From Trichlorobacter thiogenes (GTDB lineage: Bacteria > Desulfobacterota > Desulfuromonadia > Geobacterales > Pseudopelobacteraceae): DNA of 64,000 bases. The position numbers and the translations under genes were made by a program. Shown piece after piece: positions 10,801 through 26,030 of the stretch (positions within the stretch are counted from its first letter, which is position 1; each line of letters starts with the position of its first letter). The stretch is from positions 1 to 64,000 of the forward strand of contig NZ_FUWR01000015.1 in NCBI RefSeq assembly GCF_900167465.1. The letters run 5' to 3'. The notes beneath the pieces are model-generated. The model ran no database searches. It was not told where the DNA came from and saw only the letters and a program-made list of their open reading frames with translations.

Positions 10801-11616
10801 AACAAGGCAGTACTGCCAATGGCCATGATTGTTGAGTGGCTGGCCCACGCTGCCCTGCATGGCAATCCCGGTTTCCGCTTCCACGGCTTCAATGATCTGC
10901 GGATCTGCAAAGGGGTCATCATTGACCGCTCCACCCCCTGCAGCCTGCAGTTGATGGCAGGCAAGGCCAAGCGCCAGGATGCCTTCTACACCGTACCGGT
11001 GGAACTGATCAGCAGCCTGGGTGAAGGCCGCAGCCAGCTGCATGCCCGAGCAGAGATCGTACTGGCCAACAAACTGCCGGAAGGTATCCGCACCATCAAG
11101 GAACTGCCCAGCAGTCCCTACAACCAGAGCAGCGCGGTCTATGACCAGCCCTACCTGTTCCACGGTCCTGACCTGCACGGCATTGAGCAGGTGATCGGCT
11201 GTTCTGACAAAGGGATAGCAGCACTGGTCAAGGCAGCGCCCCAGCCTGGCAACTGGATCAAGCAACCGCTGCGCAGTAACTGGCTGACCGATCCGCTGGT
11301 GGTTGACAGTGCCTTCCAGATGATGATTCTTTGGAGCTTTGAGCGGTTCGGGGCTGGTTCTCTGCCCTCCTTTGCCGGTCGTTATCGTCAGTTCCATGAG
11401 ACCTTCCCAAAGGATGGCGCCCAGGTGGTGATCAGGGTCACCTCACAGCAGAGCCACAGTGCAACCGCTGATGTCGAGTTCCTTGAGCGGGCAAACGGCA
11501 AGCTGATTGCCCGCCTGGAAGGGTACGAATGCGTGATTGATGCCTCGCTGCAGCAGGCCTTCCAGCGTAATCAGTTGCCACAGGCCGGACAGACGGCTGC
11601 CCTGGTAGCAGCCTGA
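4873..11616 (+). CDS. pfaA: PfaA-type polyunsaturated fatty acid / secondary lipid synthase (KS-AT-4xACP-KR-DH)
   Basis: A 2247-residue multidomain synthase. The GTG start at 4873 has AAGGAG upstream and overlaps the pfaD stop; the frame upstream of it is only a shadow of pfaD. Domain order: ketosynthase (Cys216 in DAACASS, later EAHGTGT and GHAKAAAG), malonyl acyltransferase (Ser672 in GHSYGE), a coiled linker, four tandem acyl carrier domains each with LGIDSIKR (phosphopantetheine serines 1113, 1205, 1298, 1388), ketoreductase (TGGGRGVTAG near 1672, Tyr1858) and a C-terminal hot-dog dehydratase-like domain with HVIDNKAVLP near 1970. The four carriers are nearly identical, differing mainly in Ala/Pro-rich linkers. 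With PfaC and PfaD it builds a polyunsaturated acyl chain from malonyl units. No phosphopantetheinyl transferase gene is present in the window. Confidence 0.93.
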   Translation: MKQSEQDRTLTTAGAPLAIIGIGCLFPKSEDKAAYWATIREGVDAITEIPASHWRVDDLYDPNPKTPDKTYGKRGGFLSEVPFNPMEYNIPPNSLEAIDTSQLLGLVAAGQALQDAGYGSDKQFDRSKVSVILGVTGALEMVIPLGARLGHPRWREALHDAGVTQDVAEDVVQRISDSYVGWQENSFPGLLGNVVAGRISKQYDLGGTNCVVDAACASSFSALHLAGMELTTGAADMVVTGGVDTFNDIFMYTCFSKTPALSASGNAKPFDASADGTILGEGLGLVVLKRLADAERDGDKIYAVVRGIGSSSDGKGEAIYTPSASGQKKAILNACANAGVTLDSIGLLEAHGTGTKVGDAVEVSAAREIFGEADHPWCAISSVKSQIGHAKAAAGSAGLIKAALALHHRVIPPTIKVTKPQDEVTAGRTPFYITTRKRPWITRNNSPRRAGVSAFGFGGSNFHTILEEYRPLQEAAEWDGSVQLLTFSGADAASLTTQLASISADSAWNDLRGKAAGLRAGFDPKAACRLALTVERSANLGTLLNTAKTMLAKQPAANWTTPDGICYATGSAVAQPGLLFPGQGAQYVGMLRDLACGFPQLLDSLEQAEAATPGLTDLIYPADRFDQGAAEQQETELRATQIAQPAIGAVSLGALRLLEAFGLKAAAAAGHSYGELTALCAAGLLDETSFHSLSRLRGSLMAEGTGDKGSMLAVSAPLAAVEQMLAEEKINLVIANRNAPTQAVLSGATDQIKLAEAACKSRKLTCKQLPVAAAFHSPLVADAAAPFLAGLADIRWGSGSMPVYANSSAAPYPADMAAAKELLAGQLARPVEFVAQIEAMYAAGIRCFVEVGPGARLSGLVKAILGDKEHSCVALDSSNGKRNGLVDLGRCLAQLSVLGLEINLQLWDEGYHAPAAPAKKPLLVVPLCGANYVKSKPKRPAVAPKPVSTAQPAASSIPVAPAPITVQATAPTASRDALAESLRVTREGMAVLQRMQEETAQLHRRFLEGQETASRTIQTLLSQQQQVLQGGMATMPTMPLAPVTIAAPVMSAAVVQPQPVQQQVTVQPAPVAAQPVSNAVTETLLTVISEKTGYPMEMLELSMSMDADLGIDSIKRVEILSALQERLPSSPAIGPDQLGVLNTLGQIAEYLGAGAAVATPAAAPVQQVSSAVTETMLAVVSEKTGYPIEMLELSMSMDADLGIDSIKRVEILSALQERLPSAPVIGPDQLGVLNTLGQIADYLGAGTAVVAPVAVSGSQPASSAITETMLAVVSEKTGYPIEMLELTMSMDADLGIDSIKRVEILSCLQERLPTAPVIGPDQLGVLNTLGQIADYLGAGAAPTAVSTVQPAASNITETMLAVVSDKTGYPIEMLELTMSMDADLGIDSIKRVEILSCLQERLPTAPVIGPDQLGVLNTLGQIANYLSAGTAPAAPAAPAPSATPVQPAAAAAPSQTVLNRSRIVATPVAGGSDTISLAQNGVIVVTDDGSSFSAELCSCLTSQGHGVILTKVLDILELLPMDQVAGLVLIAPADGTDDAFLKNGFQLLKQMAPGLKRASREGGALFATVSRLDGTFGCAEGSQLIDPLSGGLAGMSKTARHEWPEVACKAIDLGGFPDQAGAAQAVASELFLNGPIEVGLSAEQRISLTLQDLPELATAATTPVQPGELVVITGGGRGVTAGAAVAMAKAWQPLLVLLGRSPLPEQEPDWLQGMTDEAAIKRAILTHSKEKLHPREIEERYQATVAGRELRETMAQIQAVGGRSLYCSVDIRDSQAVTDLLADLRKEHGEIHGLVHGAGVLADRLIVDKTREQFNQVYSTKVAGLRSLLDATRSDDLRFIALFGSTTGRLGRSGQVDYAVANEVLNKLAQAEARCRVNCRSICLNWGPWDGGMVTPALKKVFAAEGIGLIPLEAGADLLVQEIAASTGPVEVTVLAGVKGTALSIDAPKPAAPLKEALRLTLNVDDFPFISSHVIDNKAVLPMAMIVEWLAHAALHGNPGFRFHGFNDLRICKGVIIDRSTPCSLQLMAGKAKRQDAFYTVPVELISSLGEGRSQLHARAEIVLANKLPEGIRTIKELPSSPYNQSSAVYDQPYLFHGPDLHGIEQVIGCSDKGIAALVKAAPQPGNWIKQPLRSNWLTDPLVVDSAFQMMILWSFERFGAGSLPSFAGRYRQFHETFPKDGAQVVIRVTSQQSHSATADVEFLERANGKLIARLEGYECVIDASLQQAFQRNQLPQAGQTAALVAA

Positions 11617-14600
11617 TGCAGGATTACAGCAGCACAGTTGCCATAGTCGGGATCGGCGCGCTCTTTCCTGATGCCCCGGATCTTGAACAGTACTGGGAGC
11701 TGATCCGCAGCGGCCGCAGTGCTGTCCGTGAGGTACCGCCAGGACGCTGGCAGGTGGCTCCGGAAGAGGTCTTTGATCCGGAGGTGGGCAAGCAGGATCA
11801 CCTCTACACCACCCGCGGCTGTTTTCTGGACCAGACCCCGCAGCTGCTAGAGCTGGATGGCCTTGATCCCCTGTTTCATGTTCTGGTTAGCGCAGGCAGG
11901 AAGGCCTTGAGCGACAGCCAGACCGCTGGCCTTGACCGTTCCAGGGTCGGGGTGATCATCGGCAACCTGGCCCTGCCATCCGAGACTTCTTCTCTGCTGG
12001 CCCGCAACTGGCTTGGCCGCAGCTTTGAAGAACAGGTGGTCGGTCAGGCTTCTGATCCAATCCCCACCTCTCCGCTCAACCGCTATCTGGCCGGTCTTCC
12101 GGCCGGTATTCTGGCCCAGCAACTGGGTCTGGGCGGCATCACCAACACCCTTGATGCAGCCTGTGCCTCTTCGCTGTATGCCATCAAGCTGGCCATGGAT
12201 GAGCTGCTTTCAGGACGGGCTGATGCCATGCTGACCGGCGGTCTTTCCCGGCCTGACCCGCTCTACACCCAGATGGGTTTCAGCCAGCTGCGTGCCCTAT
12301 CAAAGCGCGGGATCTGTTCCCCCTTTGATGCTGCTGGCGATGGCCTCTTAACCGGCGAAGGTGCCGGTATCTTTGTCTTAAAACGGACCAGTGATGCCGT
12401 GGCTAGTGGCGACCGGATCTACGGCATCATCCGGGCTGTGGGACTTTCCAATGACGTGGGTGGCAGCCTGCTGGCACCGATGTCAGAAGGGCAGTTGCGA
12501 GCCATGCAGGCAGCCTATCAACGGGCTGGCTGGCAACCACAGGATGTTGACCTGATTGAATGCCATGCCACCGGCACCCCGGTTGGTGATGCAGTTGAGG
12601 TGGCCAGCCTGAAGGAGCTCTGGCAGGGTAGTGAGACCCGGCAGAGCTGTGTGATCGGCTCGGTCAAGTCCAACATCGGCCATTTGTTGACCGCTGCCGG
12701 GGCAGCTGCCCTGACCAAGGTGCTGCTGGCCATGCAGCATACAACCCTGCCCCCCACTGCTAATTTCAGATCCCCGCAACCCGGTATGCAACTGGAGCAA
12801 AGCCCGTTCAAGGTGCTGACCCAGGCAGAGCCGTGGCAACGCCGTGGCAACAACATTCCCCGCCGTGCTGCAGTCAGCGCCTTTGGCTTTGGAGGCATCA
12901 ATGCCCACCTGCTGGTGGAGGAATATATACCTTCTGTAGGGGCGTATGACCATACGCCCCTACAACCACCAACTTCAGAATCAATCGCAATAGTTGGCCT
13001 GGATGCCTCCTTTGGTCCCTGGCGGGGGCTGCAGGCAGTGCAGCAACGGTTGCTGGGAGGCAGCAGCAACGCCGTGGCCCCGACCCGTACCAACAAGCGC
13101 TGGTGGGGTGTTGAACAACGGACCTGGTTCAAACAACAGGGGCTTGACCAGATACCATTCACCGGCTGGTTCATGGATCAGATCAAGGTCAGCAGCAACC
13201 GTTTCCGCATCCCCCCCAAAGAGATGGAAGAGATGCAGCCCCAACAGTTACTGATGCTGCAAACCGCTGCCAATGCCCTGCAGGATGCAGGTCTGGACAA
13301 GCAGGACAACCCCAGGACCGGGGTGATGATCGGGATCGCCTTTGACCTGAACAGCACCGGATTTTCCCTGCGCTGGCCCCTGCAACGACAGGCCAAAAGC
13401 TGGGCAGTCAAGCTGGAACGGAACCTGACTGAAGTAGAGTTGACAGACTGGACAGCCAGGTTGCGGGACAACATCTCCCCTGCCCTGAACGCCAACCGCA
13501 CCATGGGCAGCCTGGGCAACATTGTGGCCAGCAGGATTGCGCGTGAATTCAAGATCGGCGGCCCTAGTTTTACCCTTTCCAGTGAAGAGAGTTCCGGCAT
13601 CCGTGCCCTGGAAACCGCTGTCAGGATGCTGCAGCAGCACGAGCTTGATCAGGCCGTGGTAGGTGCGGTTGATCTGGCCGGTGATCTACGGGCAGTGCTG
13701 GGACAACATGCCGTACACCCTTTTTCAGCCACCGGGCAATGTCGCCCCTTTGATCAACAGGCAGATGGCACGGTGATTGGTGAAGGAGCCTGCGCCTTTG
13801 TACTGAAACGGCTTTCCGATGCAGAGGCTGATGGTAACCGGATCTATGCCGTGATCCGCGGTATCGGTTCCAGTAACGGTCCCCCCCCCATCCCCCCCCT
13901 GAATCAGGGGGGGGCTACCTCTTTATTCTCCCCCACTAATTTAGGGGGGGGGTACGCATCTGCTCTGCAGCGTGCCTACCAGGATAGTGGTATTGCTCCA
14001 TCAACCGTGAGCCTGCTTGAGGCCGCTGCTGATGCCAGTCCAGAACAGGACCGGCTTGAGGCAGAGGAGCTGACCCGTTTCTTTGCTGACACTGCAGCTG
14101 ATGCAACCGTGGTCGGCAGTGTTAAAGGGGCCATCGGCCATACCGGTGCTGTATCCGGCCTGGCATCGCTGCTGCGGGGTTGTCTTGCCCTGTATCAAGA
14201 GATCATCCCGGCCAGCAGTAGCACTGAAACAGCCTGCCCGGAGCTGACCAATGGACCACTGCAGCTGGTAACCACCCCCCGTTACTGGCTGCGCAATCGG
14301 GAAGAGGGGCCACGCCGGGTCGGTGTGTCGGTCTGCGGCATTGATGGTTCCTGCAGCCACGTGGTGCTGGAGGGCTGGGATCAGCAGCCTGCTGCAGATG
14401 CTGCCAGACGGCAGGCACCACTGGGGCCATGCCATGAACTGCTGTTCCCGCTGGTTGCCAACAGCTCTGCAGAACTGGCAGCAGAGCTGGACCTGTTGCA
14501 GCAGCGCTGCCGCGCCACTGCTGGCAGCAGGCAAGAACTGGCTGGACTGGCATCTGAATATTGCAGCAGAATCACCCTGCAGACTGCACAACCGCAGGGC

Positions 14601-17600
14601 ATGGCACTGGTGGCAGCTGATGCAGAACAGCTTGAGCAGCTGATTGAGCAGGGCAGACAGATCCTGCAACAGGGAACTGACCTTGCAGACCTTCCACCTG
14701 CCCTGCGTGACCGGCTGTTCTACAGCAAAGTACCGCTGGCCAGCCAAGGCCGGATCGCCTTTGTCTTCCCCGGCTCCGGCAATCATTACCCTGATATGGC
14801 TCGAGATCTGTTCTGCTGCTGGCCCGATATATTACGGCAACAGGACAAGGAAAACCGCTGGCTGAAAGAACAGTTCCAGCCAGAGTTGTTCTGGTCTGGT
14901 AACGAGAGTGCCCTGATCAATGACAACCACCGTGCCGTGATTTTTGGTCAGGTGGCAACCGGTTGCGGGGTCAGTGACCTGGTACGCAGTTTCGGCATAA
15001 GCCCCGCCAGCGTGATCGGCTACAGCCTGGGTGAGTCAGCCGCCCTGTTCTCCACCCGGACCTGGGTGGATCGTGATCTGATGTACAGCCGGATGCAGGA
15101 ATCAACCCTGTTTACCCATGACCTGGCTGGCGAATGCCGCGCCGCCCGCATTGCCTGGGGGCTTCCTGATGACCAGCTGGTCAACTGGAGCCTGGGGGTG
15201 GTGATGGCCCCGGCCGATCAGGTACGCGCACAGATCAGCGCAATATCGCGGGTCTATCTGCTGATCATCAATACCCCGGATGAATGTGTAGTTGGTGGTG
15301 ACAGCGCTGCCGTAACCGAGCTGGTCAGCCGTCTGGGCTGCCATTTCTTCCCGCTCTACGGTGTAACCACCGTGCATTGCGAGGTGGCCCAGCCAGTAGC
15401 AACCCCGTACCATGACCTGCACCTGTTTACGACCAACCCACCCCAGGGGGTAACCTTCTACAGTGGCGCCAAAGGGGACCGTTTTGAGCCTACCCGTGAA
15501 AGCTGTGCTGCAGCAATCCTGGACCAGGCCCTGCACGGGATTGACTATCCAGCCACCATTGAAGCGGCCTACCGCGATGGCGTGCGTCTGTTCCTTGAAA
15601 TGGGGCCCGGCAACTCCTGTAGTAGGATGATCAGCCGGATTTTGGAGGGACGCCCGCACCTGGCCCGTTCTGCCTGTTACAGTGGTCAGGATCAGGTATT
15701 GACCCTGCTGCGTCTGCTGGCCAGCCTGATTGCCGAGCGGGTTCCGCTGGATCTGTCACCACTCTGTATGGCTGAGCCCCTTGCAACTCAGGTCACAAGC
15801 AACAGCCCGCAGGTTCAGCTGGTGATTGGCGGCAAGCCGTTTAGAGTGCCGACACTGCCGCCTGCAATAATCCGTGCAGAATCAAACCCCTCTAACCCTC
15901 CCCGGCCCTCCCTTGTCAGGGAGGGAGCAAAACCTGTTTCTAGCCCCCCTGACAAGGGGGGATGGGGGGTTGCTTCTTCTAGCCATGACCTGCTGCAGGA
16001 GTTCAGTCAGGCCCAGGCAGCCCAGATTGCAGCCCATGAGGCGTTTCTTACCCTCAGCAATAGCCTGACCCAATCCATGGCACAGGCGCTGGCGCTGCAG
16101 GCCAACCTGCAACAGGCATTGGGTGATGATACAGAGCCAAATCCACTCCAGCCCACAAACCCCTCCCGACCTCCCCTTGTCAGGGGAGGAGAAAAGCCTT
16201 TAAGCCCCCCTGACAAGGGGGGATGGGGGGTTGCCTTTAACCGTGAGATGTGCATGGAGTTTGCCATCGGCTCGGTGGCCAAGATGCTGGGACCGCAATT
16301 TGCCGAGGTGGATAGCTTCCCCACCCGGGTACGTCTGCCGGATGAGCCGTTGATGCTGGTGGACCGGATTATCCGGGTTGAGGGTGAGCCGCGCTCCATG
16401 ACCCATGGCCGGGTAATTACCGAGCATGACATCTTCCCCCATGCTTGGTACCTGGATGGTGGTCGCATTCCCACCTGCATCGCAGTGGAGGCTGGTCAGG
16501 CAGACCTGTTCCTGTCCGGCTACCTGGGAATCGACTTCATCACCAAGGGGTTGGCGGTCTATCGCCTGCTGGATGCGGTGGTGACCTTCCACCGTGGCCT
16601 GCCCGGCCCTGGTGAGACCATCAACTATGATATCCGGATTGAACGGTTCTTCCGCCAGGGAGACACCTGGCTGTTCCGCTTCTTCTTTGAGGCAACCGTG
16701 GCTGGTGAGCCGCTGCTCTCCATGCGGGACGGCTGCGCCGGGTTCTTCTCATCAGCAGCACTTGAGGCTGGCAAAGGGATTGTCAGACCACTGGTTGATC
16801 CGCGTCCGACAACCGGCGTGAGGCAGGCTGACTGGCAGGATCTGGTGCCCCTGAAACGGGAAGGGTTCACGGCTGAGCAGCTTGATAAACTGCGCCATGG
16901 TGATCTGGCTGGCTGCTTTGGCCCCTTGTTCAGCGGCCTCGGCATCAAGCAGCCCCTGACCATTCCTGGTGGCAGAATGCGCCTGGTACACCGGGTCAAT
17001 GAGATCATCCCCAGTGGTGGGCGCTACGGCCAGGGGATGATCCGGGCTGAGGCAGACATTCACCCGGATGACTGGTTCATCACCTGCCACTTTGTTGATG
17101 ACCGGGTCATGCCCGGCACCCTGATGTACGAGTGCTGCATGCATACCCTGCGGATTCTGCTGCTACGGATCGGCTGGGTGGCTGAGGCAAACAGTGCGGT
17201 CTGGGAACCGGTACCCGGTGTGGCCAGCAAGCTCTGCTGCCGCGGCCAGGTACTGGAGACAACCAAGGTGGTTACCTATGAGGTTACCATCCGCGAGATC
17301 GGCTATCGACCGGAACCGTATGTAATTGTGGATGCCCTGATGTATGCCGATGGCAAGCCGATTGTGGAGATTACCAGCATGTCGGCCCGCCTGACCGGAA
17401 CCACCAGACAGCAGCTTGAACAGCTCTGGCAGGGGCGCAACAGCAGCCCTGTCAGTTATATCAAGCCAGCTATCTATACGAAGAAACAGATTCTGGCCTA
17501 CAGCAACGGCAATCCCTCGGAAGGATTCGGCGACCGTTACCAGGTCTTTGATCAGCAGCGCAAGATCGCTCGCCTGCCTGGCCCGCCGTTCCAGTTTATG

Positions 17601-18551
17601 GACCGGGTAACCTCAGTCACTGGTGAGCCGTGGCAGATGAAGGCCGGAGCCGCAGCCGAGGCCCAGTATGACCTGCCGACCGATGCCTGGTTCTTTGGGG
17701 TAGAACGTCAGCCCCTCATGCCGTTCTGCGTGCTTCTGGAGGCAGCCCTGCAGCCCTGCGGCTGGCTGGCAGCCTATGTGGGTTCTGCCCTGACCACCCC
17801 CAATGACATCTCGTTCCGCAATCTGGGCGGCAGTGCCATCCAGCACCGCCCCGTAATGCCGGACAGCGGCACCCTGACCTGCAGCGCCACCATGACCAAG
17901 GTGGCCACCAGTGGCGGCATGATCATCCAGGAGTTTGATTTCAGCGTAGCTGATAGCGTGGGGCTGATCTACGAAGGCCAGACCATGTTCGGCTTCTTCT
18001 CCAAAGAAGCCTTGGCCAACCAGGTCGGTATCCGCGATGCACAGCCCTATCAGCCATCAGAGGCGGAAGCTGCCCGTGGTCGCAGCCTTGCCTATCCAAC
18101 TGCGGCACCGTTTCCGGACAAACAGTTGCGGATGATCGACCAGATCGAACTGTACGTGCCCGATGGTGGTCCGGCTGGGCTGGGGTATCTGCAGGGGATC
18201 AAACAGGTTGATCCTGATGAGTGGTTCTTTAAGGCCCACTTCTATGAAGACCCGGTTACCCCCGGTTCCCTTGGGCTTGAGTCATTCCAGCAGTTGCTCA
18301 AGTTTGCAGCTGTTGAACGCTGGGGCTGGCAGGATGGCACGATCATCTCCAGCGTGGCCCTGCAACAGAAGCACCGCTGGCTCTACCGTGGCCAAGTGGT
18401 GCCCACAAACCAGCAGGTAACAGTCACTGCCTGGATCACTGCAGTGGATGATCAGCAACAGTTGCTGACTGCCAGCGGCTTCCTGGCCGTGGATGGCAAA
18501 CTGATTTACCAGATGATTGATTTTACCGTGAGAATGGAACCCATACGATGA
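11616..18551 (+). CDS. pfaC: PfaC-type synthase with fused acyltransferase (KS-CLF-AT-DH-DH)
   Basis: A 2311-residue partner of PfaA, coupled to it by a TGATG overlap. Order: ketosynthase (Cys183 in DAACASS), chain-length factor (the catalytic Cys replaced by Glu657 in SSEESS), an acyltransferase with FPGSGNHYP and GYSLGE (Ser1137), and two FabA-like double hot-dog dehydratases. The dehydratases are marked by GRIPTCIAVEAGQ near 1617, CHFVDDRVMPG near 1825, a second DRV block near 1990 and AHFYEDPVTPG near 2206. The acyltransferase resembles the separate PfaB protein of marine gammaproteobacteria, so PfaB function appears built in. Chain-length factor and dehydratases determine length and cis double-bond placement. 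The coding sequence contains several palindromic repeat units inserted in frame (listed separately), adding Pro/Gly-rich linkers. Confidence 0.92.
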   Translation: MQDYSSTVAIVGIGALFPDAPDLEQYWELIRSGRSAVREVPPGRWQVAPEEVFDPEVGKQDHLYTTRGCFLDQTPQLLELDGLDPLFHVLVSAGRKALSDSQTAGLDRSRVGVIIGNLALPSETSSLLARNWLGRSFEEQVVGQASDPIPTSPLNRYLAGLPAGILAQQLGLGGITNTLDAACASSLYAIKLAMDELLSGRADAMLTGGLSRPDPLYTQMGFSQLRALSKRGICSPFDAAGDGLLTGEGAGIFVLKRTSDAVASGDRIYGIIRAVGLSNDVGGSLLAPMSEGQLRAMQAAYQRAGWQPQDVDLIECHATGTPVGDAVEVASLKELWQGSETRQSCVIGSVKSNIGHLLTAAGAAALTKVLLAMQHTTLPPTANFRSPQPGMQLEQSPFKVLTQAEPWQRRGNNIPRRAAVSAFGFGGINAHLLVEEYIPSVGAYDHTPLQPPTSESIAIVGLDASFGPWRGLQAVQQRLLGGSSNAVAPTRTNKRWWGVEQRTWFKQQGLDQIPFTGWFMDQIKVSSNRFRIPPKEMEEMQPQQLLMLQTAANALQDAGLDKQDNPRTGVMIGIAFDLNSTGFSLRWPLQRQAKSWAVKLERNLTEVELTDWTARLRDNISPALNANRTMGSLGNIVASRIAREFKIGGPSFTLSSEESSGIRALETAVRMLQQHELDQAVVGAVDLAGDLRAVLGQHAVHPFSATGQCRPFDQQADGTVIGEGACAFVLKRLSDAEADGNRIYAVIRGIGSSNGPPPIPPLNQGGATSLFSPTNLGGGYASALQRAYQDSGIAPSTVSLLEAAADASPEQDRLEAEELTRFFADTAADATVVGSVKGAIGHTGAVSGLASLLRGCLALYQEIIPASSSTETACPELTNGPLQLVTTPRYWLRNREEGPRRVGVSVCGIDGSCSHVVLEGWDQQPAADAARRQAPLGPCHELLFPLVANSSAELAAELDLLQQRCRATAGSRQELAGLASEYCSRITLQTAQPQGMALVAADAEQLEQLIEQGRQILQQGTDLADLPPALRDRLFYSKVPLASQGRIAFVFPGSGNHYPDMARDLFCCWPDILRQQDKENRWLKEQFQPELFWSGNESALINDNHRAVIFGQVATGCGVSDLVRSFGISPASVIGYSLGESAALFSTRTWVDRDLMYSRMQESTLFTHDLAGECRAARIAWGLPDDQLVNWSLGVVMAPADQVRAQISAISRVYLLIINTPDECVVGGDSAAVTELVSRLGCHFFPLYGVTTVHCEVAQPVATPYHDLHLFTTNPPQGVTFYSGAKGDRFEPTRESCAAAILDQALHGIDYPATIEAAYRDGVRLFLEMGPGNSCSRMISRILEGRPHLARSACYSGQDQVLTLLRLLASLIAERVPLDLSPLCMAEPLATQVTSNSPQVQLVIGGKPFRVPTLPPAIIRAESNPSNPPRPSLVREGAKPVSSPPDKGGWGVASSSHDLLQEFSQAQAAQIAAHEAFLTLSNSLTQSMAQALALQANLQQALGDDTEPNPLQPTNPSRPPLVRGGEKPLSPPDKGGWGVAFNREMCMEFAIGSVAKMLGPQFAEVDSFPTRVRLPDEPLMLVDRIIRVEGEPRSMTHGRVITEHDIFPHAWYLDGGRIPTCIAVEAGQADLFLSGYLGIDFITKGLAVYRLLDAVVTFHRGLPGPGETINYDIRIERFFRQGDTWLFRFFFEATVAGEPLLSMRDGCAGFFSSAALEAGKGIVRPLVDPRPTTGVRQADWQDLVPLKREGFTAEQLDKLRHGDLAGCFGPLFSGLGIKQPLTIPGGRMRLVHRVNEIIPSGGRYGQGMIRAEADIHPDDWFITCHFVDDRVMPGTLMYECCMHTLRILLLRIGWVAEANSAVWEPVPGVASKLCCRGQVLETTKVVTYEVTIREIGYRPEPYVIVDALMYADGKPIVEITSMSARLTGTTRQQLEQLWQGRNSSPVSYIKPAIYTKKQILAYSNGNPSEGFGDRYQVFDQQRKIARLPGPPFQFMDRVTSVTGEPWQMKAGAAAEAQYDLPTDAWFFGVERQPLMPFCVLLEAALQPCGWLAAYVGSALTTPNDISFRNLGGSAIQHRPVMPDSGTLTCSATMTKVATSGGMIIQEFDFSVADSVGLIYEGQTMFGFFSKEALANQVGIRDAQPYQPSEAEAARGRSLAYPTAAPFPDKQLRMIDQIELYVPDGGPAGLGYLQGIKQVDPDEWFFKAHFYEDPVTPGSLGLESFQQLLKFAAVERWGWQDGTIISSVALQQKHRWLYRGQVVPTNQQVTVTAWITAVDDQQQLLTASGFLAVDGKLIYQMIDFTVRMEPIR
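12936..12963. repeat. Palindromic repeat inside pfaC (KS-CLF linker)
   Basis: Perfect 13-bp inverted arms GTAGGGGCGTATG / CATACGCCCCTAC with a 2-base centre. It lies in frame in pfaC between the ketosynthase and chain-length-factor domains and encodes a short linker (SVGAYDHTPLQ). Such G/C-rich palindromes are common as interspersed intergenic repeats in Geobacter-type genomes; finding one inside a coding sequence is unusual. Confidence 0.85.
13880..13954. repeat. Palindromic repeat pair inside the pfaC chain-length-factor domain
   Basis: Two hairpins lie in tandem. The first is CCCCCCCCTGA / TCAGGGGGGGG (13892-13902 and 13904-13914, perfect 11-bp arms). The second is CCCCCACTAA / TTTAGGGGG (about 13930-13949). 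It is translated as a Pro/Gly-rich insert after GIGSSNG, where PfaA and other ketosynthases have a short surface loop before the next helix. It keeps the frame. Confidence 0.8.
15885..15976. repeat. Palindromic repeat inside pfaC, copy A of a related pair
   Basis: Contains CCCTCCC / GGGAGGG (15906-15912, 15919-15925) and CCCCCC-TGACAA-GGGGGG (15944-15961), followed by ATGGGGGGTTGC. It is translated in frame as a Pro/Gly-rich linker ending SPPDKGGWGV, between the acyltransferase and the first dehydratase. The copy at 16140 has the same order of hairpins and nearly the same sequence. Confidence 0.85.
16140..16237. repeat. Palindromic repeat inside pfaC, copy B of a related pair
   Basis: CTCCCC / GGGGAG (16171-16176, 16183-16188) and CCCCCC-TGACAA-GGGGGG (16205-16222), then ATGGGGGGTTGC. 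It reads in the same frame as copy A and again yields SPPDKGGWGV. The two copies lie about 255 bp apart and bracket a short helical linker between the acyltransferase and dehydratase domains. Confidence 0.85.
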
Positions 18552-19591
18552 AGTATCAGAAGGTTGTGATTGAGGCGTTGGAATACGAACTGGCGCCGGT
18601 GGTGGTTTCCAGCAGCGATCTTGAGGCACGACTTGAGCCGCTCTACCGCGAACTGCGGATCGCGCCGGGACAGCTGCAGGCCCTGACCGGTATCCGTGAG
18701 CGGCGCTGGTGGGAGCCGGGCTACCCGCTGTCCCATGGCGCCATCATGGCAGCCCGCAAGGCGCTGCTTAGCTCCGGCATTGCTGCCAGCGAGATCGGCG
18801 CCCTGGTCTACACCGGTGTCTGCCGCGAACAGTTTGAACCTGCCACCGCCTGCCGGGTGGCCGACGGCCTGGGGATCAGCGGCGATGTGGCGATCTTTGA
18901 CCTCTCCAACGCCTGTCTGGGGGTCCTGAACGGCATTCTGGATATGGCAAACAGAATAGAACTGGGCCAGATCAAGGCCGGTCTGGTGGTTTCCTGTGAA
19001 TCAGCCCGCGAGATCAATGAGGTCATGATTGCCAAGATGCTGGAAGAGCGTAACATGCAGCATTTTGCCCATTCCCTGGCCACCCTGACCGGTGGTTCCG
19101 GCGCTGTGGCAGTTCTGCTGACCGATGGTTCATTCGGCAGCAGCGCCCCTCACCGCCTGCTGGGCGGCATTACCAAGGCAGCTCCGCAGCACCACAACCT
19201 CTGCCTGTGGGGTGTTGGGCCGGACGGCAAGGGTGGTTATCAGCAGTCCATGGCAACCGACGGGGTTAATGTCATGAACCATGGCGTGGAACTGGGCCGT
19301 CGCACCTGGGAGGCGTTTCTGCCCCATGTGGGCTGGAAGGCAGAACAGGTTGACCGGGTGATCTGCCACCAGGTTGGTTCAGCCCACCAGAGCATGATCC
19401 TGAAAACCCTGGGGGTGCCTGCTGACAAGGACTTTACCACCTATGAATTCCTGGGCAACATGGGCACGGTCTCCCTGCCGCTGACCGCCGCACTGGCGGT
19501 TGAACGGGATATCCTGCTAGCGGGGGACAGGGTTGCGTTTCTGGGTATCGGAAGCGGTCTGAACTGCATGATGTTGGGAATCGAGTGGTAA
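18548..19591 (+). CDS. oleA: OleA-type acyl-CoA/acyl thiolase (head-to-head condensation)
   Basis: A 347-residue thiolase-fold enzyme related to FabH. The catalytic residues of OleA are visible: Cys123 in SNACLG, His274 in CHQVG, Asn304 in LGNMG, and the OleA-typical Glu97 in CREQFEPATA, 26 residues before the Cys as in the characterised Xanthomonas enzyme. OleA joins two fatty acyl thioesters head to head by a non-decarboxylative Claisen condensation, giving a 2-alkyl-3-ketoacid. Its ATG overlaps the pfaC stop (ATGA), so it is translationally coupled to the PUFA synthase. This argues that synthase products are its substrates. Confidence 0.92.
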   Translation: MKYQKVVIEALEYELAPVVVSSSDLEARLEPLYRELRIAPGQLQALTGIRERRWWEPGYPLSHGAIMAARKALLSSGIAASEIGALVYTGVCREQFEPATACRVADGLGISGDVAIFDLSNACLGVLNGILDMANRIELGQIKAGLVVSCESAREINEVMIAKMLEERNMQHFAHSLATLTGGSGAVAVLLTDGSFGSSAPHRLLGGITKAAPQHHNLCLWGVGPDGKGGYQQSMATDGVNVMNHGVELGRRTWEAFLPHVGWKAEQVDRVICHQVGSAHQSMILKTLGVPADKDFTTYEFLGNMGTVSLPLTAALAVERDILLAGDRVAFLGIGSGLNCMMLGIEW

Positions 19592-19604
19592 TTTAATTCT
19601 TTTT

Positions 19605-19700
19605 CACCACAGAGATCACAGAGGAACACAGAGGAAAAGCCCAAAGGCTATTCAATAAGATTTTGAAGTTTCTCTGAGCCCTCTGAGCCCTCTGTGGTAA
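19605..19700. repeat. Interspersed inverted repeat between oleA and oleB
   Basis: Left arm CACCACAGAGATCACAGAGG and right arm with CTCTGAGCCCTCTGTGGT form a long imperfect inverted repeat filling most of the 149-bp oleA-oleB gap. The CACAGAGG...CACAGAGG type of sequence is a familiar interspersed repeat of bacterial genomes. It separates two otherwise tightly packed parts of the operon and could fold in the mRNA. Confidence 0.7.
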
Positions 19701-19740
19701 ATGTTTTTGACTTGTATTTTGAAAGGCTCTGATTCAACTG

Positions 19741-20637
19741 ATGAATCCTGATCTGATAAAACACTACCCCTTTAGCAGCAACTACCTTGACCTGAACGGC
19801 CTCAAGTACCACTATCTGGATGAAGGCCAGGGGCCGACCGTGGTAATGCTGCATGGCAACCCATCCTGGTCGTTCTACTATCGTAATCTGGTCAGAGAGC
19901 TTTCCAATCGCTTCCGTTGCATTGTGCCGGATCATATCGGCTGCGGCCTTTCTGACAAACCGGGGGACGACCGCTATGACTATACCCTGCCCCAACGGGT
20001 GGATGATCTGGAGCAGTTGCTGGATAACCTGCAGCTGAACGAGAAGATCACCTTGGTTGTGCATGACTGGGGCGGCATGATCGGCATGGCCTATGCGGTG
20101 CGCCACCCGGAGCGGATCAGCCGCCTAGTGATCCTGAATACCGGTGCCTTTCCGTTGCCCAAGGCCAAGCCATTTCCACTGGGCCTGAGAATCTGCCGTG
20201 ACACCTGGCTAGGCACCCTGCTGGTGCGAGGCTTCAATGCCTTCAGTCGTGGCGCTGCCTGGGTGGGCTGTAAAGAGCATCCGATGTCAGCGGAGCTGCG
20301 GGCGCTTTATGAGCTGCCCTATGACTCCTGGCAGAACCGGATCGCCACCCTGCGCTTTGTGCAGGATATCCCGCTGCAGCCTGGTGACCGTAACTATGAC
20401 CTGATCTGCGAAGTGGCTGACGGCATCAACCAGTTTGCTGCCCTGCCGATGCTGATCTGCTGGGGTGAGCTTGATTTTGTGTTTGATTGTCACTTCCTGG
20501 CAGAATGGAAGCGCCGTTTCCCTGCTGCTGAACTGCATAGCTATCCCAAAGCTGGGCACTATATCCTGGAAGATCGGCAGGATGTGGTGGTGCCGATCAT
20601 CAGTGAGTTTTTAGACCGAACCGGTCCAGCAACCTGA
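19741..20637 (+). CDS. oleB: OleB-type alpha/beta hydrolase (beta-lactone decarboxylase)
   Basis: A 298-residue protein of the haloalkane-dehalogenase-like branch of the alpha/beta hydrolases. The nucleophile is Asp109 in VVHDWGG, the oxyanion region is HGNPSWSF near residue 39 and the catalytic His is His273 in AGHYIL. In the ole pathway OleB removes CO2 from the beta-lactone made by OleC and releases the cis-olefin. It lies 149 bp after oleA, across an inverted repeat, and 5 bp before oleC. Its sequence alone would also fit a dehalogenase; the neighbours decide the call. Confidence 0.9.
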   Translation: MNPDLIKHYPFSSNYLDLNGLKYHYLDEGQGPTVVMLHGNPSWSFYYRNLVRELSNRFRCIVPDHIGCGLSDKPGDDRYDYTLPQRVDDLEQLLDNLQLNEKITLVVHDWGGMIGMAYAVRHPERISRLVILNTGAFPLPKAKPFPLGLRICRDTWLGTLLVRGFNAFSRGAAWVGCKEHPMSAELRALYELPYDSWQNRIATLRFVQDIPLQPGDRNYDLICEVADGINQFAALPMLICWGELDFVFDCHFLAEWKRRFPAAELHSYPKAGHYILEDRQDVVVPIISEFLDRTGPAT

Positions 20638-20642
20638 ACAAC

Positions 20643-22277
20643 ATGACCATACCCACCTTTGTCAACATCGCCGCCCATCTACCCAGGATGGCGCAGCAAC
20701 AGCCGGATACCACGGCAATTATATTTCCCAAAGGTAATCAGCGTCTGACCTTTCAGGAGCTAGACCAACTGTCTGACCGGATCTGTCATGGCTTAATCTG
20801 CTCCGGCATTACCCGCGGTACCCGTACCGTGCTGATGGTTACCCCTTCTCCGGAGTTTTTTGCCCTGACCTTTGCCCTGTTCAAGGTGGGGGCGATACCG
20901 GTGCTGATTGATCCTGGTCTGGGGATCAAAAATCTGAAGTCCTGCCTGGCTGAGGCGCAACCAACCGCCTTTATTGGCATCCCCAAGGCCCAGGTTGCCC
21001 GCCTGCTGTTCGGCTGGGCAAAGGACAGCCTTAAAACTATCATCACGGTTGGGCCGCGGCTATTCTGGTGCGGTACAACTCTTGACAATCTGATCAAGCA
21101 GAGCCCTGAGCAACCTTTTGAAATAGCAGTTACGGCTGCCGATGATCAGGCAGCCATCCTGTTTACCAGCGGCAGCACCGGCCCTCCCAAAGGTGCAATC
21201 TACAGTCATGGCAACTTCAGTGCCCAGATTGCGGCATTAAAACAGGTCTACCTCATTCAGCCCGGCGAGATTGATCTGCCCACCTTTCCGCTGTTTGCCC
21301 TATTTGCACCAGCCCTGGGGATGACTGCAGTGATTCCGGAGATGGACTTTACCCGGCCCGGTTCAGTTGATCCGCAAAAGATCATCTCTGCCATCACCAC
21401 TTATAACGTCACCACCATGTTCGGTTCACCGGCCCTGATCAACCGGGTCAGTCGCTATGGTGCTGAGCAGGGGATCAAACTGCCCACTCTGAAACGGGTA
21501 ATCTCTGCCGGTGCGCCGGTTCCGGCTGCGGTTCTGGAACGGTTTTCACGGATGCTTGCCGATGGCGTGGAGATCTTTACCCCCTATGGTGCCACCGAGT
21601 CTTTGCCGGTCTGCTCCATTGGCAGCCGTGAGATCCTTGGTGAGACGCGCGCTATTACTGAGAACGGCGGCGGGGTCTGCATCGGTAAGCCGGTTGACAG
21701 TATCCGGGTTGAGTTGATCAGGATCAGCGATGAACCGATTGCAGCCTGGAGTGATGATCTGCGTGTTGCACCGGGTCAGGTTGGCGAGATTGTGGTGCAG
21801 GGTCCACAGGTGACCCGTGGCTATTTCCAACGGCCTGAGGCAGATCAGGTTTCCAAGATCAGCGATCCTGAAGGTGGTTTTTTCCACCGCATGGGCGATC
21901 TGGGCAGACAGGATGAGACCGGCAGACTCTGGTTTTGTGGCCGCAAATCCCACCGGGTTGAATCGGCCCTTGGTCCATTGTTCACCATCCCGGTGGAAGC
22001 AGTCTTTAATACCCATCCTGCTGTGTTCCGCAGCGCCCTGGTTGGTATCGGCCCCAAAGTCAGCCAGCAACCGGTAATCTGCATTGAACTGGAACAAGGG
22101 TTCAGCGCCAGTCAGGAACAGGTACGGTCTGAACTGTTGAGCATTGCCGCCAGCCATCCACATACCAAGGATATCAACACAATCCTGTTCCATCCTGCCT
22201 TTCCGGTGGATATCCGCCACAATGCCAAGATCTTCCGTGAGAAACTGGCGGTCTGGGCTGCGGAGCAACTGACATGA
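20643..22277 (+). CDS. oleC: OleC-type beta-lactone synthetase (AMP-ligase fold)
   Basis: A 544-residue member of the acyl-CoA synthetase superfamily with the adenylation loop LFTSGSTGPPKG near residue 173, TPYGATES near 316 and the GD..R..E.G hinge region near 425. OleC uses ATP to convert the 2-alkyl-3-hydroxyacid from OleD to a beta-lactone. Its stop overlaps the oleD start (ATGA). Together with oleA, oleB and oleD it makes the full olefin set. Confidence 0.9.
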   Translation: MTIPTFVNIAAHLPRMAQQQPDTTAIIFPKGNQRLTFQELDQLSDRICHGLICSGITRGTRTVLMVTPSPEFFALTFALFKVGAIPVLIDPGLGIKNLKSCLAEAQPTAFIGIPKAQVARLLFGWAKDSLKTIITVGPRLFWCGTTLDNLIKQSPEQPFEIAVTAADDQAAILFTSGSTGPPKGAIYSHGNFSAQIAALKQVYLIQPGEIDLPTFPLFALFAPALGMTAVIPEMDFTRPGSVDPQKIISAITTYNVTTMFGSPALINRVSRYGAEQGIKLPTLKRVISAGAPVPAAVLERFSRMLADGVEIFTPYGATESLPVCSIGSREILGETRAITENGGGVCIGKPVDSIRVELIRISDEPIAAWSDDLRVAPGQVGEIVVQGPQVTRGYFQRPEADQVSKISDPEGGFFHRMGDLGRQDETGRLWFCGRKSHRVESALGPLFTIPVEAVFNTHPAVFRSALVGIGPKVSQQPVICIELEQGFSASQEQVRSELLSIAASHPHTKDINTILFHPAFPVDIRHNAKIFREKLAVWAAEQLT

Positions 22278-23269
22278 AGGCATTAGTTACCGGCGGCGGC
22301 GGATTTTTAGGCGGTGTGATCGTTAAAATGCTACGTGAGCGAGGCGATCAGGTGGTCAGCATCTCACGCTCCAGTTACCCTGCACTGACTAGCCTGGGGG
22401 TTGCACAGGTGCAGACAGATCTTGCTGACAAAGCCGCAGTGATCAAGGCAGCCGAAGGATGCGACATCATCTTTCACGTGGCAGCCAAGGCCGGTATCTG
22501 GGGCAGCTACAACGACTTCTATCAGGCCAATGTAACCGGCACTGAAAACGTACTGGAAGCCTGCAGGCGGCATGGCATTACCAAGCTGGTCTACACCAGC
22601 TCCCCCAGCGTGGTGTTTGATGGCACTGATGTCGAGGGTGGCAATGAGTCCCTGCCCTACCCTGACCACTTTGAGGCCTTTTATCCCCAGACCAAGGCAC
22701 TGGCTGAACAGCTGGTGCTGCAGGCAAACAGCCCACAGCTTGCAACCGTGTCACTACGTCCCCACCTGATCTGGGGGCCGAGTGATAACCATCTGGTACC
22801 ACGGATCATTGCCAAGGGAAAGAGTGGCAGATTGCGGCGGATCGGCAACCGTCCCTGTCTGGTGGACACTGTCTACGTGGACAATGCCGCCAAGGCGCAC
22901 CTGCAGGCAGCAGAACAACTTGCACCAGGCAGCCCGGTTGCAGGCAAGGCCTATTTTATCAGTAATGGTGAGCCGCTACCGCTCTGGGAGATGGTTAACC
23001 GGATTCTGGCCGCAGGTGGTGTAGCGCCGGTAAAAAGGAGGATCTCACCAAAGGCAGCCTATGCCATTGGAACAATCTGTGAAAAACTTTGGGGATGGTT
23101 TAAGTTGGCTGGTGAACCGCCCATGACCCGCTTTGTGGCCAAAGAACTGGCCACGGCCCACTGGTTTGATATCTCGGCAGCAAAAAAAGATTTCGGCTAT
23201 CAACCAGAGATAACGGTTGATGAAGGGTTAAAACAGTTACAACAATGGCTTGCTACAATCAGACCGTGA
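22274..23269 (+). CDS. oleD: OleD-type NAD(P)H-dependent 2-alkyl-3-ketoacid reductase
   Basis: A 331-residue short-chain dehydrogenase of the extended (epimerase-like) type. The N-terminus has the Rossmann motif TGGGGFLGG (residues 6-14), followed by a conserved HVAA and the active-site YPQTK (Tyr near residue 137). OleD reduces the OleA product to the 2-alkyl-3-hydroxyacid. It is the last gene of the operon, and its end overlaps the convergent lgt gene by 11 bases with no terminator between them. Confidence 0.9.
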   Translation: MKALVTGGGGFLGGVIVKMLRERGDQVVSISRSSYPALTSLGVAQVQTDLADKAAVIKAAEGCDIIFHVAAKAGIWGSYNDFYQANVTGTENVLEACRRHGITKLVYTSSPSVVFDGTDVEGGNESLPYPDHFEAFYPQTKALAEQLVLQANSPQLATVSLRPHLIWGPSDNHLVPRIIAKGKSGRLRRIGNRPCLVDTVYVDNAAKAHLQAAEQLAPGSPVAGKAYFISNGEPLPLWEMVNRILAAGGVAPVKRRISPKAAYAIGTICEKLWGWFKLAGEPPMTRFVAKELATAHWFDISAAKKDFGYQPEITVDEGLKQLQQWLATIRP

Positions 23270-24053: not shown

Positions 24054-24145
24054 ATCAAGTTACTCCTAGGCTGTATCTATGAAAGTGTAATAAAAAACGT
24101 CCAAAAATTCTGACTGCTATGGTATATAACCAGCTGGAGGGTATC

Positions 24146-24298
24146 ATGAAAGATATTATTTTGTTGCTGATTATTCTGGTTGTCTGGTTTGTGGTGAACA
24201 AATACCTGCTCCCAAAAATGGGAGTCCCTACCTGAATGTCAGACAGCTGTACTCCCCCGGTTCGGGAGGAGAAAAAAACCACCGATAACAAGAAGTAG
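24146..24298 (+). CDS. Candidate 50-residue membrane selenoprotein (in-frame UGA)
   Basis: ATG at 24146 has GGAGGG 4 bases upstream. Read conventionally, the frame stops at TGA 24233-24235 after 29 residues: one hydrophobic helix (residues about 4-17), then NKYLLPKMGVPT. Read through as selenocysteine, it continues for 20 residues, MSDSC followed by a charged, Lys-rich tail, and ends at TAG 24296. The UGA would give a UX4C pair (Sec30, Cys35) just after the membrane helix. A hairpin with GGUUC in its loop begins 16 bases after the UGA, as in bacterial SECIS elements. Geobacter-type bacteria are known to use selenocysteine, and I recall small proteins there with Cys at the matching PTCMS position. 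It is likely a membrane-anchored thiol/selenol redox protein; function unknown. Confidence 0.7.
24252..24271 (+). promoter_or_regulatory. SECIS-like hairpin downstream of the in-frame UGA
   Basis: CTCC (24252-24255) pairs with GGAG (24268-24271) and CCC (24256-24258) with GGG (24264-24266). A single bulged A lies at 24267 and the apical loop is GGTTC (24259-24263). The loop starts 23 bases after the UGA, within the spacing described for bacterial SECIS elements, and has the required G in its first positions. It lies inside the coding region, as expected in bacteria. Confidence 0.65.
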
Positions 24299-24323: not shown

Positions 24324-24354
24324 CAAGGCCGGTTGCTCTCAGCGACCGGCCTTG
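24324..24354 (-). terminator. Terminator of the ispB-tlpA-ccdA-VOC operon
   Basis: A perfect 10-bp stem CAAGGCCGGT / ACCGGCCTTG. On the minus strand it is followed by TGTTTGTCTG, a weak U-rich run. The VOC gene's stop codon lies in the loop. It also sits 26 bases after the selenoprotein candidate and could serve both strands. Confidence 0.6.
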
Positions 24355-24773
24355 CTACGTCGTACCGTTGGCTCCTCAAGGGCAATCAGGTAGCCATCAG
24401 GATCAAAACACCACATCTCCTTGACGCCATAGGGTTTTTCTTCCAGGTGATAGAGAATCTCCATATCCTCTTCAAGAATGGCATCCCTGATCCCTTCAAT
24501 ATCCTGAACTTCAAAATGCAGTGTCAGGCCAACCCCTTTGGGAAACATACCGAAGCGATGTTCAAGAATCGGGTGAGTCCTGATCACATCCCCCTCCTCG
24601 ACAAAGATCAGCGAGATCCCTTCCATATCAACAATCAGGTGCTCCGGTGCGCCAGGTGCAGAAAAAGAGCGGCGGATCGGCAGCTCCAGAATACCGGCAT
24701 AAAAGGCTTCTGTGACCACCAGTTGGGAGACAGCCAGCTGAATTGAATGCTGTGAACGATGCGCCTTGACCAT
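24339..24773 (-). CDS. VOC (glyoxalase/bleomycin-resistance) family protein
   Basis: 144 residues with the beta-alpha-beta-beta-beta repeats of the vicinal oxygen chelate fold. Recognisable parts are AFYAGILELP near residue 23, the GLTLHFEVQDIE strand-turn near 81 and the C-terminal FDPDGYLIALEEP. Possible metal ligands include a His at the N-terminus and the C-terminal Glu. Such proteins range from glyoxalases to dioxygenases, so the reaction is not assignable. It starts one base beyond the ccdA stop and is probably the last gene of that operon. Confidence 0.8.
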   Translation of the reverse strand: MVKAHRSQHSIQLAVSQLVVTEAFYAGILELPIRRSFSAPGAPEHLIVDMEGISLIFVEEGDVIRTHPILEHRFGMFPKGVGLTLHFEVQDIEGIRDAILEEDMEILYHLEEKPYGVKEMWCFDPDGYLIALEEPTVRRSKAGR

Positions 24774-24774
24774 C

Positions 24775-25503
24775 TTAGTTTTTCATGAACAGCAGATTAA
24801 CATAACCGGATAATACGGACAGCCAGTTGGTAAAGATCAGGATACCGACAATCATCAGGAAGAATCCGGTAATGATTTCAAAGAGCCGGATATGCTTTTT
24901 AAAACGATTAAAGATCGTAATAAAGCGATGCAGGGCAAGCGATGAAAGCAGAAACGGTATCCCCAACCCGATGGAGTAGAGCAGCAACAGCACAATCCCT
25001 TGGGCAACCTTTTCCTCGGTTGCTGCAATCATCAGAATCGAGGCCAGGATCGGGCCGATACAGGGGGTCCAACCAGCCGCAAAGGCCAATCCAACCAAGA
25101 AGCTGCCCAGAAAACCGGCCGGTTTATGCTTCAGCGAGACCCGTTTTTCTCCCAGTAACCATCTCAGCGGCACCAAACCGGTGACATGAATACCAAAGAC
25201 AAAAATCAGAATTCCGCCAAGCTTGCGAACCAGCTCCATATGTTGCTGCAGAAAAGAGCCGATATAGGTTGCAGAGGCGCCAAGCAATACAAAAACCACC
25301 GTAAAACCAATGACAAAGGCCAGCGAGTGCAGCATGGTCTTTCTGCGCACCACATGGGTTGGATGCTCAGCATCCAGATCACTGAACGAAAGTCCGGTAA
25401 TATAGGTGATGTACGACGGGATGAGCGGCAGAACACAGGGAGACAGGAAGGAAAGCAGACCTGCCACAAAGGCCCCGATATAGCTTATATGCGGAGTTTC
25501 CAT
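24775..25503 (-). CDS. ccdA: CcdA-type thiol-disulfide electron transporter
   Basis: A 242-residue inner-membrane protein with six predicted spans, of the CcdA/DsbD-transmembrane family. The two conserved redox cysteines are seen in LSPCVLPLIPSY near residue 22 and GWTPCIGPILA near 148. CcdA carries electrons from cytoplasmic thioredoxin to periplasmic partners, typically for cytochrome c maturation. It lies 11 bases after the tlpA-like gene, whose product is a natural periplasmic partner. This fits an organism rich in c-type cytochromes. Confidence 0.92.
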   Translation of the reverse strand: METPHISYIGAFVAGLLSFLSPCVLPLIPSYITYITGLSFSDLDAEHPTHVVRRKTMLHSLAFVIGFTVVFVLLGASATYIGSFLQQHMELVRKLGGILIFVFGIHVTGLVPLRWLLGEKRVSLKHKPAGFLGSFLVGLAFAAGWTPCIGPILASILMIAATEEKVAQGIVLLLLYSIGLGIPFLLSSLALHRFITIFNRFKKHIRLFEIITGFFLMIVGILIFTNWLSVLSGYVNLLFMKN

Positions 25504-25514
25504 AAAATTCCTGA

Positions 25515-26030
25515 CTACTTCATCAATCCTTCAAGAAACGCGATCACTTCTGGGCTGTTCCAATCCAAGCCGCCGATGACCTTCTTCACAATCATGCCGT
25601 TTTTATCAATTACAAAGGTCTCTGGCACCCCGGTAATACCGTAGGTCTTGGAAACCTGACCGCTGGGGTCAGTATAGGCAGGCAACGAAAAACCAGAATT
25701 TTTGAAGAACTCTTCAATCGCCTTTTTACCACCTTCATCAACCGAGACACAGACCATTTGAAATGGCTTGCCCTTCATAAACGTGTTCAGTTTCATCATG
25801 GAAGGGATCTCTTCACGGCAGGGAGGACACCAGGTGGCCCAGAAGTTAAGCAACACAACCTTACCTTTCAGGGATGCAAGGGTCAGCTGTTGATTATCAA
25901 GGGAAACAACACTGATCTCGGGTGCCTGGCTTTTTTCAGCCGGGGTTTTACCCGGCGCATTAGACGTGCCCTTGCTGCAACCAGTGGCAAGGGCAACAGC
26001 ACAGCAGAGCAGTACCAATAACTTTTTCAT
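25515..26030 (-). CDS. TlpA/ResA-type thioredoxin-like lipoprotein
   Basis: 171 residues with a lipoprotein signal (lipobox ATGC, Cys18) and a thioredoxin fold carrying WATWCPPC near residue 71. The cis-Pro lies in GVPETF near 137. Proteins of this type reduce cysteines in apocytochromes c or other exported proteins. The adjacent ccdA gene supplies the electron route across the membrane. It follows ispB after 47 bp and is probably co-transcribed with it. Confidence 0.9.
   Translation of the reverse strand: MKKLLVLLCCAVALATGCSKGTSNAPGKTPAEKSQAPEISVVSLDNQQLTLASLKGKVVLLNFWATWCPPCREEIPSMMKLNTFMKGKPFQMVCVSVDEGGKKAIEEFFKNSGFSLPAYTDPSGQVSKTYGITGVPETFVIDKNGMIVKKVIGGLDWNSPEVIAFLEGLMK

Follow-up and report, generated by a model that had tools for sequence, protein, structure and literature searches.

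A very probable 50-residue membrane selenoprotein of Trichlorobacter thiogenes and its relatives

The locus and its parts

The DNA analysed here (the window) is a stretch of 64,000 nucleotides from Trichlorobacter thiogenes, contig NZ_FUWR01000015.1. At position 24146 of its forward strand an ATG opens a reading frame that has 29 codons before an in-frame TGA at 24233-24235 and continues past that codon for 20 more, the first ones specifying MSDSC, to a TAG at 24296-24298. The read-through product is MKDIILLLIILVVWFVVNKYLLPKMGVPT-U-MSDSCTPPVREEKKTTDNKK. The features of the locus, with the basis for each in parentheses, are these:

24136-24141, + strand: Shine-Dalgarno-like GGAGGG (sequence)
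24146-24298, + strand: very probable selenoprotein gene, 50 residues, Sec being residue 30 (TGA), with TAG as stop (sequence, alignments, covariation)
24149-24217, + strand: predicted transmembrane helix, residues 2-24 (AlphaFold2 model, pLDDT about 90 for residues 1-20; hydrophobic sequence)
24233-24235, + strand: TGA, very probably selenocysteine, residue 30 (TGA in 122/122 loci of the order; a Cys codon in homologues from other lineages)
24248-24250, + strand: conserved partner Cys35 of a Ux4C pair (invariant in alignments A1 and A3)
24252-24271, + strand: bSECIS hairpin, apical loop GGTTC or GTT 23-24 nt past the TGA (folding, covariation, constraint check)
24325-24353, no strand assigned: inverted repeat AAGGCCGGT...ACCGGCCTT, a probable terminator common to both convergent genes (inferred from sequence alone)
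24339-24773, - strand: convergent neighbour, VOC-like by eye and without an NCBIfam match (adjacency to the selenoprotein gene retained at 37 of the order's loci)
24775-25503, - strand: CcdA/DsbD-type transmembrane thiol-disulfide protein (family member)
25515-26030, - strand: TlpA/ResA-like thiol-disulfide oxidoreductase (annotation of neighbours)

A preliminary description of this locus had listed the GGAGGG, the ATG, the 29 codons, the TGA, the 20 codons beginning MSDSC and the TAG, all of which held when checked against the sequence. It had also placed a hairpin with its stem 16 nt, and a GGTTC loop 23 nt, past the TGA; that position held, and its 7-bp stem held only with the A at 24267 bulged out.

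Elsewhere in the window, at 18548-23269 (+), are olefin-type genes (an OleA-like 3-oxoacyl-ACP synthase III, a hydrolase, an olefin beta-lactone synthetase-like ligase and an OleD-like reductase; NCBIfam matches, partly below cut-off). A 2311-residue polyketide/PUFA-synthase-type ORF (11616-18551) lies directly upstream of them. From sequence alone, 11616-23269 is inferred to be a long-chain olefin cluster.

The TGA codon and the hairpin that follows it

The survey of Sec-form genes was limited to the source phylum. When the read-through product is the query, 13 of the 13 other matching genomes of the genus have an in-frame TGA within the match, and 126 of 141 genomes of the order match at E <= 1, about 115 of them clearly significantly and with the TGA, the remainder by chance. 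With an alignment as query, matches are found in 222/277 genomes of the class and, in a sample of the phylum, in 168/395 genomes representing 112/246 genera; the Sec codon is TGA in all the clearly significant matches listed for class and phylum. Among the 122 loci extracted from the order, the TGA stands at the same codon in every one, at 29 codons from the start in at least 120, and is accompanied throughout by Thr as the preceding residue and Cys as residue 35. Searches of plasmids gave no match, and a phage origin was rejected, viral contigs containing no relative.

Selection has acted on protein sequence on both sides of the TGA: dN/dS is 0.152 upstream and 0.285 downstream (51 independent pairs), without comparable bias in a +1 frame control, and constraint at the amino acid level extends for at least 14 codons past the TGA. 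Synonymous change is lower after the TGA than before it (0.234 vs 0.390), as is expected, because RNA structure is also constrained there. The reading in which the TGA is a true stop, leaving a 29-residue membrane peptide and a hairpin that serves as terminator or regulatory element, can point to the strong helix and to a conserved, GC-rich hairpin straight after the stop. It is, however, all but ruled out by those constrained codons and the invariant Cys35, by the lack of a T-run in the sequence after the window hairpin, and by the Cys homologues, which read straight through. A reassigned TGA code was rejected as well, 38 of the 122 family members themselves terminating with TGA.

The Cys homologues, ten in number and uninterrupted, with TGC or TGT in place of the TGA, were found by scanning named genomes with a Cys-only pattern, a scan that is uninformative about Sec forms in those genomes. 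Their hosts are MAGs of unclassified Deltaproteobacteria, Acidobacteria, Chloroflexi and Verrucomicrobia, plus one MAG labelled Cyanobacteriota (labels as deposited, unchecked). They retain the motif P-K/R-x-G-x-x-T-C-M-S-x-x-C; the order itself yielded no Cys form.

The codon following the TGA is ATG in 108 of the 122 loci, a classical stop-start arrangement that lends some support to another reading: two tiny, translationally coupled genes at TGAATG, one for a 29-residue membrane peptide and the other for a 20-residue peptide beginning MSDSC. We consider this highly improbable. The codon is CTG, TTG, ATA or ACT in the other 14 loci of the order, and it is one of these or a Gly, Val or Ala codon in many distant loci; the Cys homologues are single unbroken ORFs; and coupling leaves unexplained both the covariation of the hairpin stem and the joint loss with selB that are described below.

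Around the TGA, Sec in the preferred reading, some variation is seen. In one family of the class (loci L156-L168) GLGUGPQQC replaces TUMSDSC (that is, G-U-G-P-x-x-C vs T-U-M-S-x-x-C), and the downstream DLPVRK motif is conserved; distant members with longer loops (UMSPGNGRSC) keep the Sec plus a later Cys. The spacing of the partner Cys ranges from Ux3C to Ux8C among distant members, a variability more in keeping with a flexible tail than with a rigid active site.

Bacterial SECIS elements are constrained to a loop of 3-9 nt with an early G, a stem of 4-16 bp, a distance of 16-37 nt from the UGA and an MFE <= -7.5 kcal/mol (PMC13188914). The window hairpin satisfies every one of these constraints; MFE folding adds an extra closing G-C pair, giving 8 bp, a GUU loop 24 nt away and -12.0 kcal/mol. 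All the constraints are satisfied at 116/122 loci of the order and 47/59 more distant loci, and, as a control, at 35/150 TGA codons that truly terminate neighbouring ORFs. In 96% of loci the folding energy is lower than in shuffles that preserve the codons (mean z -1.65). Stem covariation greatly exceeds its controls: 56 cells of the alignment show a double change vs 20.2 +/- 7.5 on shuffling, and the covariation score is 0.412 vs 0.211 for shuffled alignments. Slid registers fail, none having more than 17 double changes. Pairing is retained in 88% of stem cells, with CG/AU/UA exchange at four pairs. The loop begins 23 nt from the UGA in 86/122 loci of the order, and its G (position G26) is invariant in 107/107 distinct sequences. 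An Rfam scan of the locus returned only chance matches.

Selenocysteine machinery and loss of the gene

The source genome encodes selA, selB, selD and a tRNA-Sec with anticodon TCA (selC), and its intact selD (contig C20) itself contains a TGA. There is also a second selD (G000:C37:64619-65453), which appears as two overlapping match pieces, with a frame break. Among 112 genomes of 90% completeness or more, 95 of the 101 with selB have the gene vs 1 of the 11 without it (Fisher p = 1.5e-9, uncorrected for kinship). The losses fall mostly in one genus, the others in two more, and selA is also absent from all ten selB-less genomes that lack the gene. In G119 and G103, which have no Sec machinery, the C_GCAxxG_C_C and YgaP-like genes are still adjacent and only the selenoprotein gene is missing.

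The exception, G120, has an intact TGA-containing gene (L084) with its hairpin, and neither selA nor selB was found in it; this genome may have lost the Sec trait recently, or its assembly may have a gap. Two genomes that have kept the Sec machinery have likewise lost the gene from the operon. The gene is judged to be dispensable on this ground and because six near-complete selB-positive genomes lack it.

As side observations, the operon C_GCAxxG_C_C - YgaP_TM - MBL is found without the selenoprotein gene at L217 (G119), L218 (G103), L219 (G105) and L220 (G113), and in G103 and G105 repeat-like DNA occupies the site of the missing gene.

We take the TGA to encode Sec because conservation of the protein on both sides, SECIS covariation, Cys homologues, co-loss with selB and the presence of the Sec machinery all support it. 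That 24146-24298 encodes a true selenocysteine protein with a recoded UGA is thus all but certain, on computational grounds; no 75Se or mass-spectrometry data exist. The preliminary description had come to the same interpretation and had named two findings that would overturn it, namely absence of conservation downstream of the UGA in relatives and absence of selB/selC from the genome. Both were looked for: conservation is found downstream of the UGA, and selA, selB, selC and selD are all present. Sec incorporation itself remains without experimental data.

Topology, neighbours and standing among known selenoproteins

The membrane anchor and Ux4C pair of the preliminary description also held, the AlphaFold model showing one helix (residues 2-24) followed by low-confidence coil; its redox function remains an inference. 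The model offers no fold usable for structure search. Across the family, the 30 C-terminal-side residues contain 5.7 Lys/Arg on average, the N terminus carrying a net charge of +0.7, and the tail is inferred to be cytoplasmic because, by the positive-inside rule, the basic C-terminal side should lie there.

Genes of thiol and sulfur metabolism are frequent neighbours. A convergent group, VOC-like - ccdA - tlpA/resA, stands opposite the gene in the window and in 37 loci of the order. A CcdA/DsbD gene lies directly downstream on the same strand in the Cys forms L136-L139 and upstream in the Sec form L181; a thioredoxin gene is upstream at L187, and the Cys form L142 is preceded by a rhodanese-YgaP and an MBL-fold gene. 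(A cluster assignment of the L187 neighbour to CcdA was rejected: it is a thioredoxin, merged into that cluster via DsbD fusions.) The arrangement RND pump - C_GCAxxG_C_C - gene - YgaP_TM - MBL is found in about 14-21 loci of the order, some with a rhodanese; C_GCAxxG_C_C is upstream in 14 loci, and rhodanese or MBL genes are downstream in others. Many loci have no thiol/sulfur neighbour at all and context is variable, so that the neighbourhood suggests a thiol/sulfur function and does not prove it.

In the mechanism that we propose, SelB would bind the hairpin at 24252-24271 and the ribosome would decode the UGA at 24233 as selenocysteine, yielding a single membrane helix and a short, presumably cytoplasmic tail that carries the Sec30-x4-Cys35 pair and is basic at its C terminus. 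The selenol/thiol pair would then be a membrane-tethered exchange site for electrons or sulfane sulfur, with thioredoxin and rhodanese as the soluble carriers on one side and CcdA and YgaP-like proteins as the membrane partners on the other. A tethered Ux4C relay is proposed because thiol/sulfur proteins (CcdA, TlpA, thioredoxin, rhodanese, YgaP-like, C_GCAxxG_C_C) are so frequent among the neighbours. Taken jointly, a selenoprotein with some sort of thiol/selenol function is very likely; for the relay in particular, whose redox or persulfide chemistry and partners are inferred, we would put the case for no higher than the case against.

The main rival to the relay is a selenoprotein that serves as a metal or metalloid ligand, for example a soft-metal chaperone. 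An RND efflux (ACR_tran) gene is upstream in 21 loci, with ArsR-like regulators near, the Sec/Cys pair sits on a flexible membrane-tethered tail, and a 2026 review argues metal binding for several Sec families (PMC13188914). Against this, only one subset of loci has metal-type neighbours, thiol/sulfur neighbours recur across unrelated lineages and in Cys forms, and no ligand residues are conserved beyond the U and C; the idea remains possible. A structural or regulatory role, such as stabilising a membrane complex as one of its small subunits, Sec being a redox sensor, would fit the size and topology, which are like those of small membrane subunits generally, and the varying operon context. 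It is unlikely, since Sec is costly and strictly kept and there is no constant partner gene.

Returning to the thiol/selenol protein, we have not found this family described in the open-access literature that was searched, and a description elsewhere is possible. Thirty-six diverse members passed no curated cut-off of NCBIfam release 20 (best E 0.018, to unrelated models), neither the window protein nor six Cys homologues passed a Pfam-A gathering cut-off, a PDB profile search gave no match, and the 119 prokaryotic selenoprotein families of the 2026 review include none with such a motif and size. The UGA codon makes gene finders truncate a 50-residue membrane protein, and two early genome scans had cut-offs of 90 residues, or 80 for SelW (PMC1242214), and of 80 codons (PMC1914089). 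In three Desulfuromonadia genomes, which may or may not carry the gene, deep-Sep (PMC12013277) is reported to have identified no new family; it filters on Cys homologues.

The window gene resembles bacterial selenoprotein genes decoded through SelB and bSECIS in its in-frame UGA, hairpin 16-37 nt downstream with an MFE below -7.5 kcal/mol, G in the first two loop positions, Cys homologues and co-occurrence with selB (PMC13188914). Its product differs from known bacterial selenoproteins in having only about 50 residues and Ux4C rather than UxxC or CxxU, and, as far as NCBIfam shows, it has no homology to any of the 119 families. Unlike selenoproteins of thioredoxin-like fold, it models as helix and coil, without that fold or a UxxC/CxxU motif. 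TsoB (NF045694), a rhodanese/DsbD fusion-like selenoprotein, also ties Sec to rhodanese and DsbD-type membrane thiol chemistry, the partner types that adjoin the window gene, but it is a large fused protein with UxxxxU, whose model the small window protein fails. The PP0621 family (NF041023) shares small size and an N-terminal membrane helix, but scores 13.3 bits against a cut-off of 45, matching over the helix only. The eukaryotic proteins SELENOK and SELENOS likewise have one membrane helix, their Sec lying in a disordered cytosolic tail; they differ in Sec position and in their eukaryotic SECIS, and sequence similarity is not expected.

Selenoprotein catalogues serve to gauge an organism's dependence on selenium, and an uncatalogued family in 112/246 sampled genera would alter the selenoprotein counts of well-studied metal- and sulfate-reducing bacteria; more small selenoproteins may sit under the length limits of past scans. 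A bolder reading, which we are slightly more inclined to doubt than to accept, is that this is among the phylum's most widespread selenoproteins, an undescribed relay linking cytoplasmic sulfane-sulfur/thioredoxin chemistry to CcdA/YgaP-type membrane proteins and missed through its size of about 50 residues. Conservation, loss with selB and the thiol/sulfur neighbours make the function directly testable. Two copies of the gene, in different contexts, are present in each of the genomes G017, G018, G085, G098, G107, G114 and G117.
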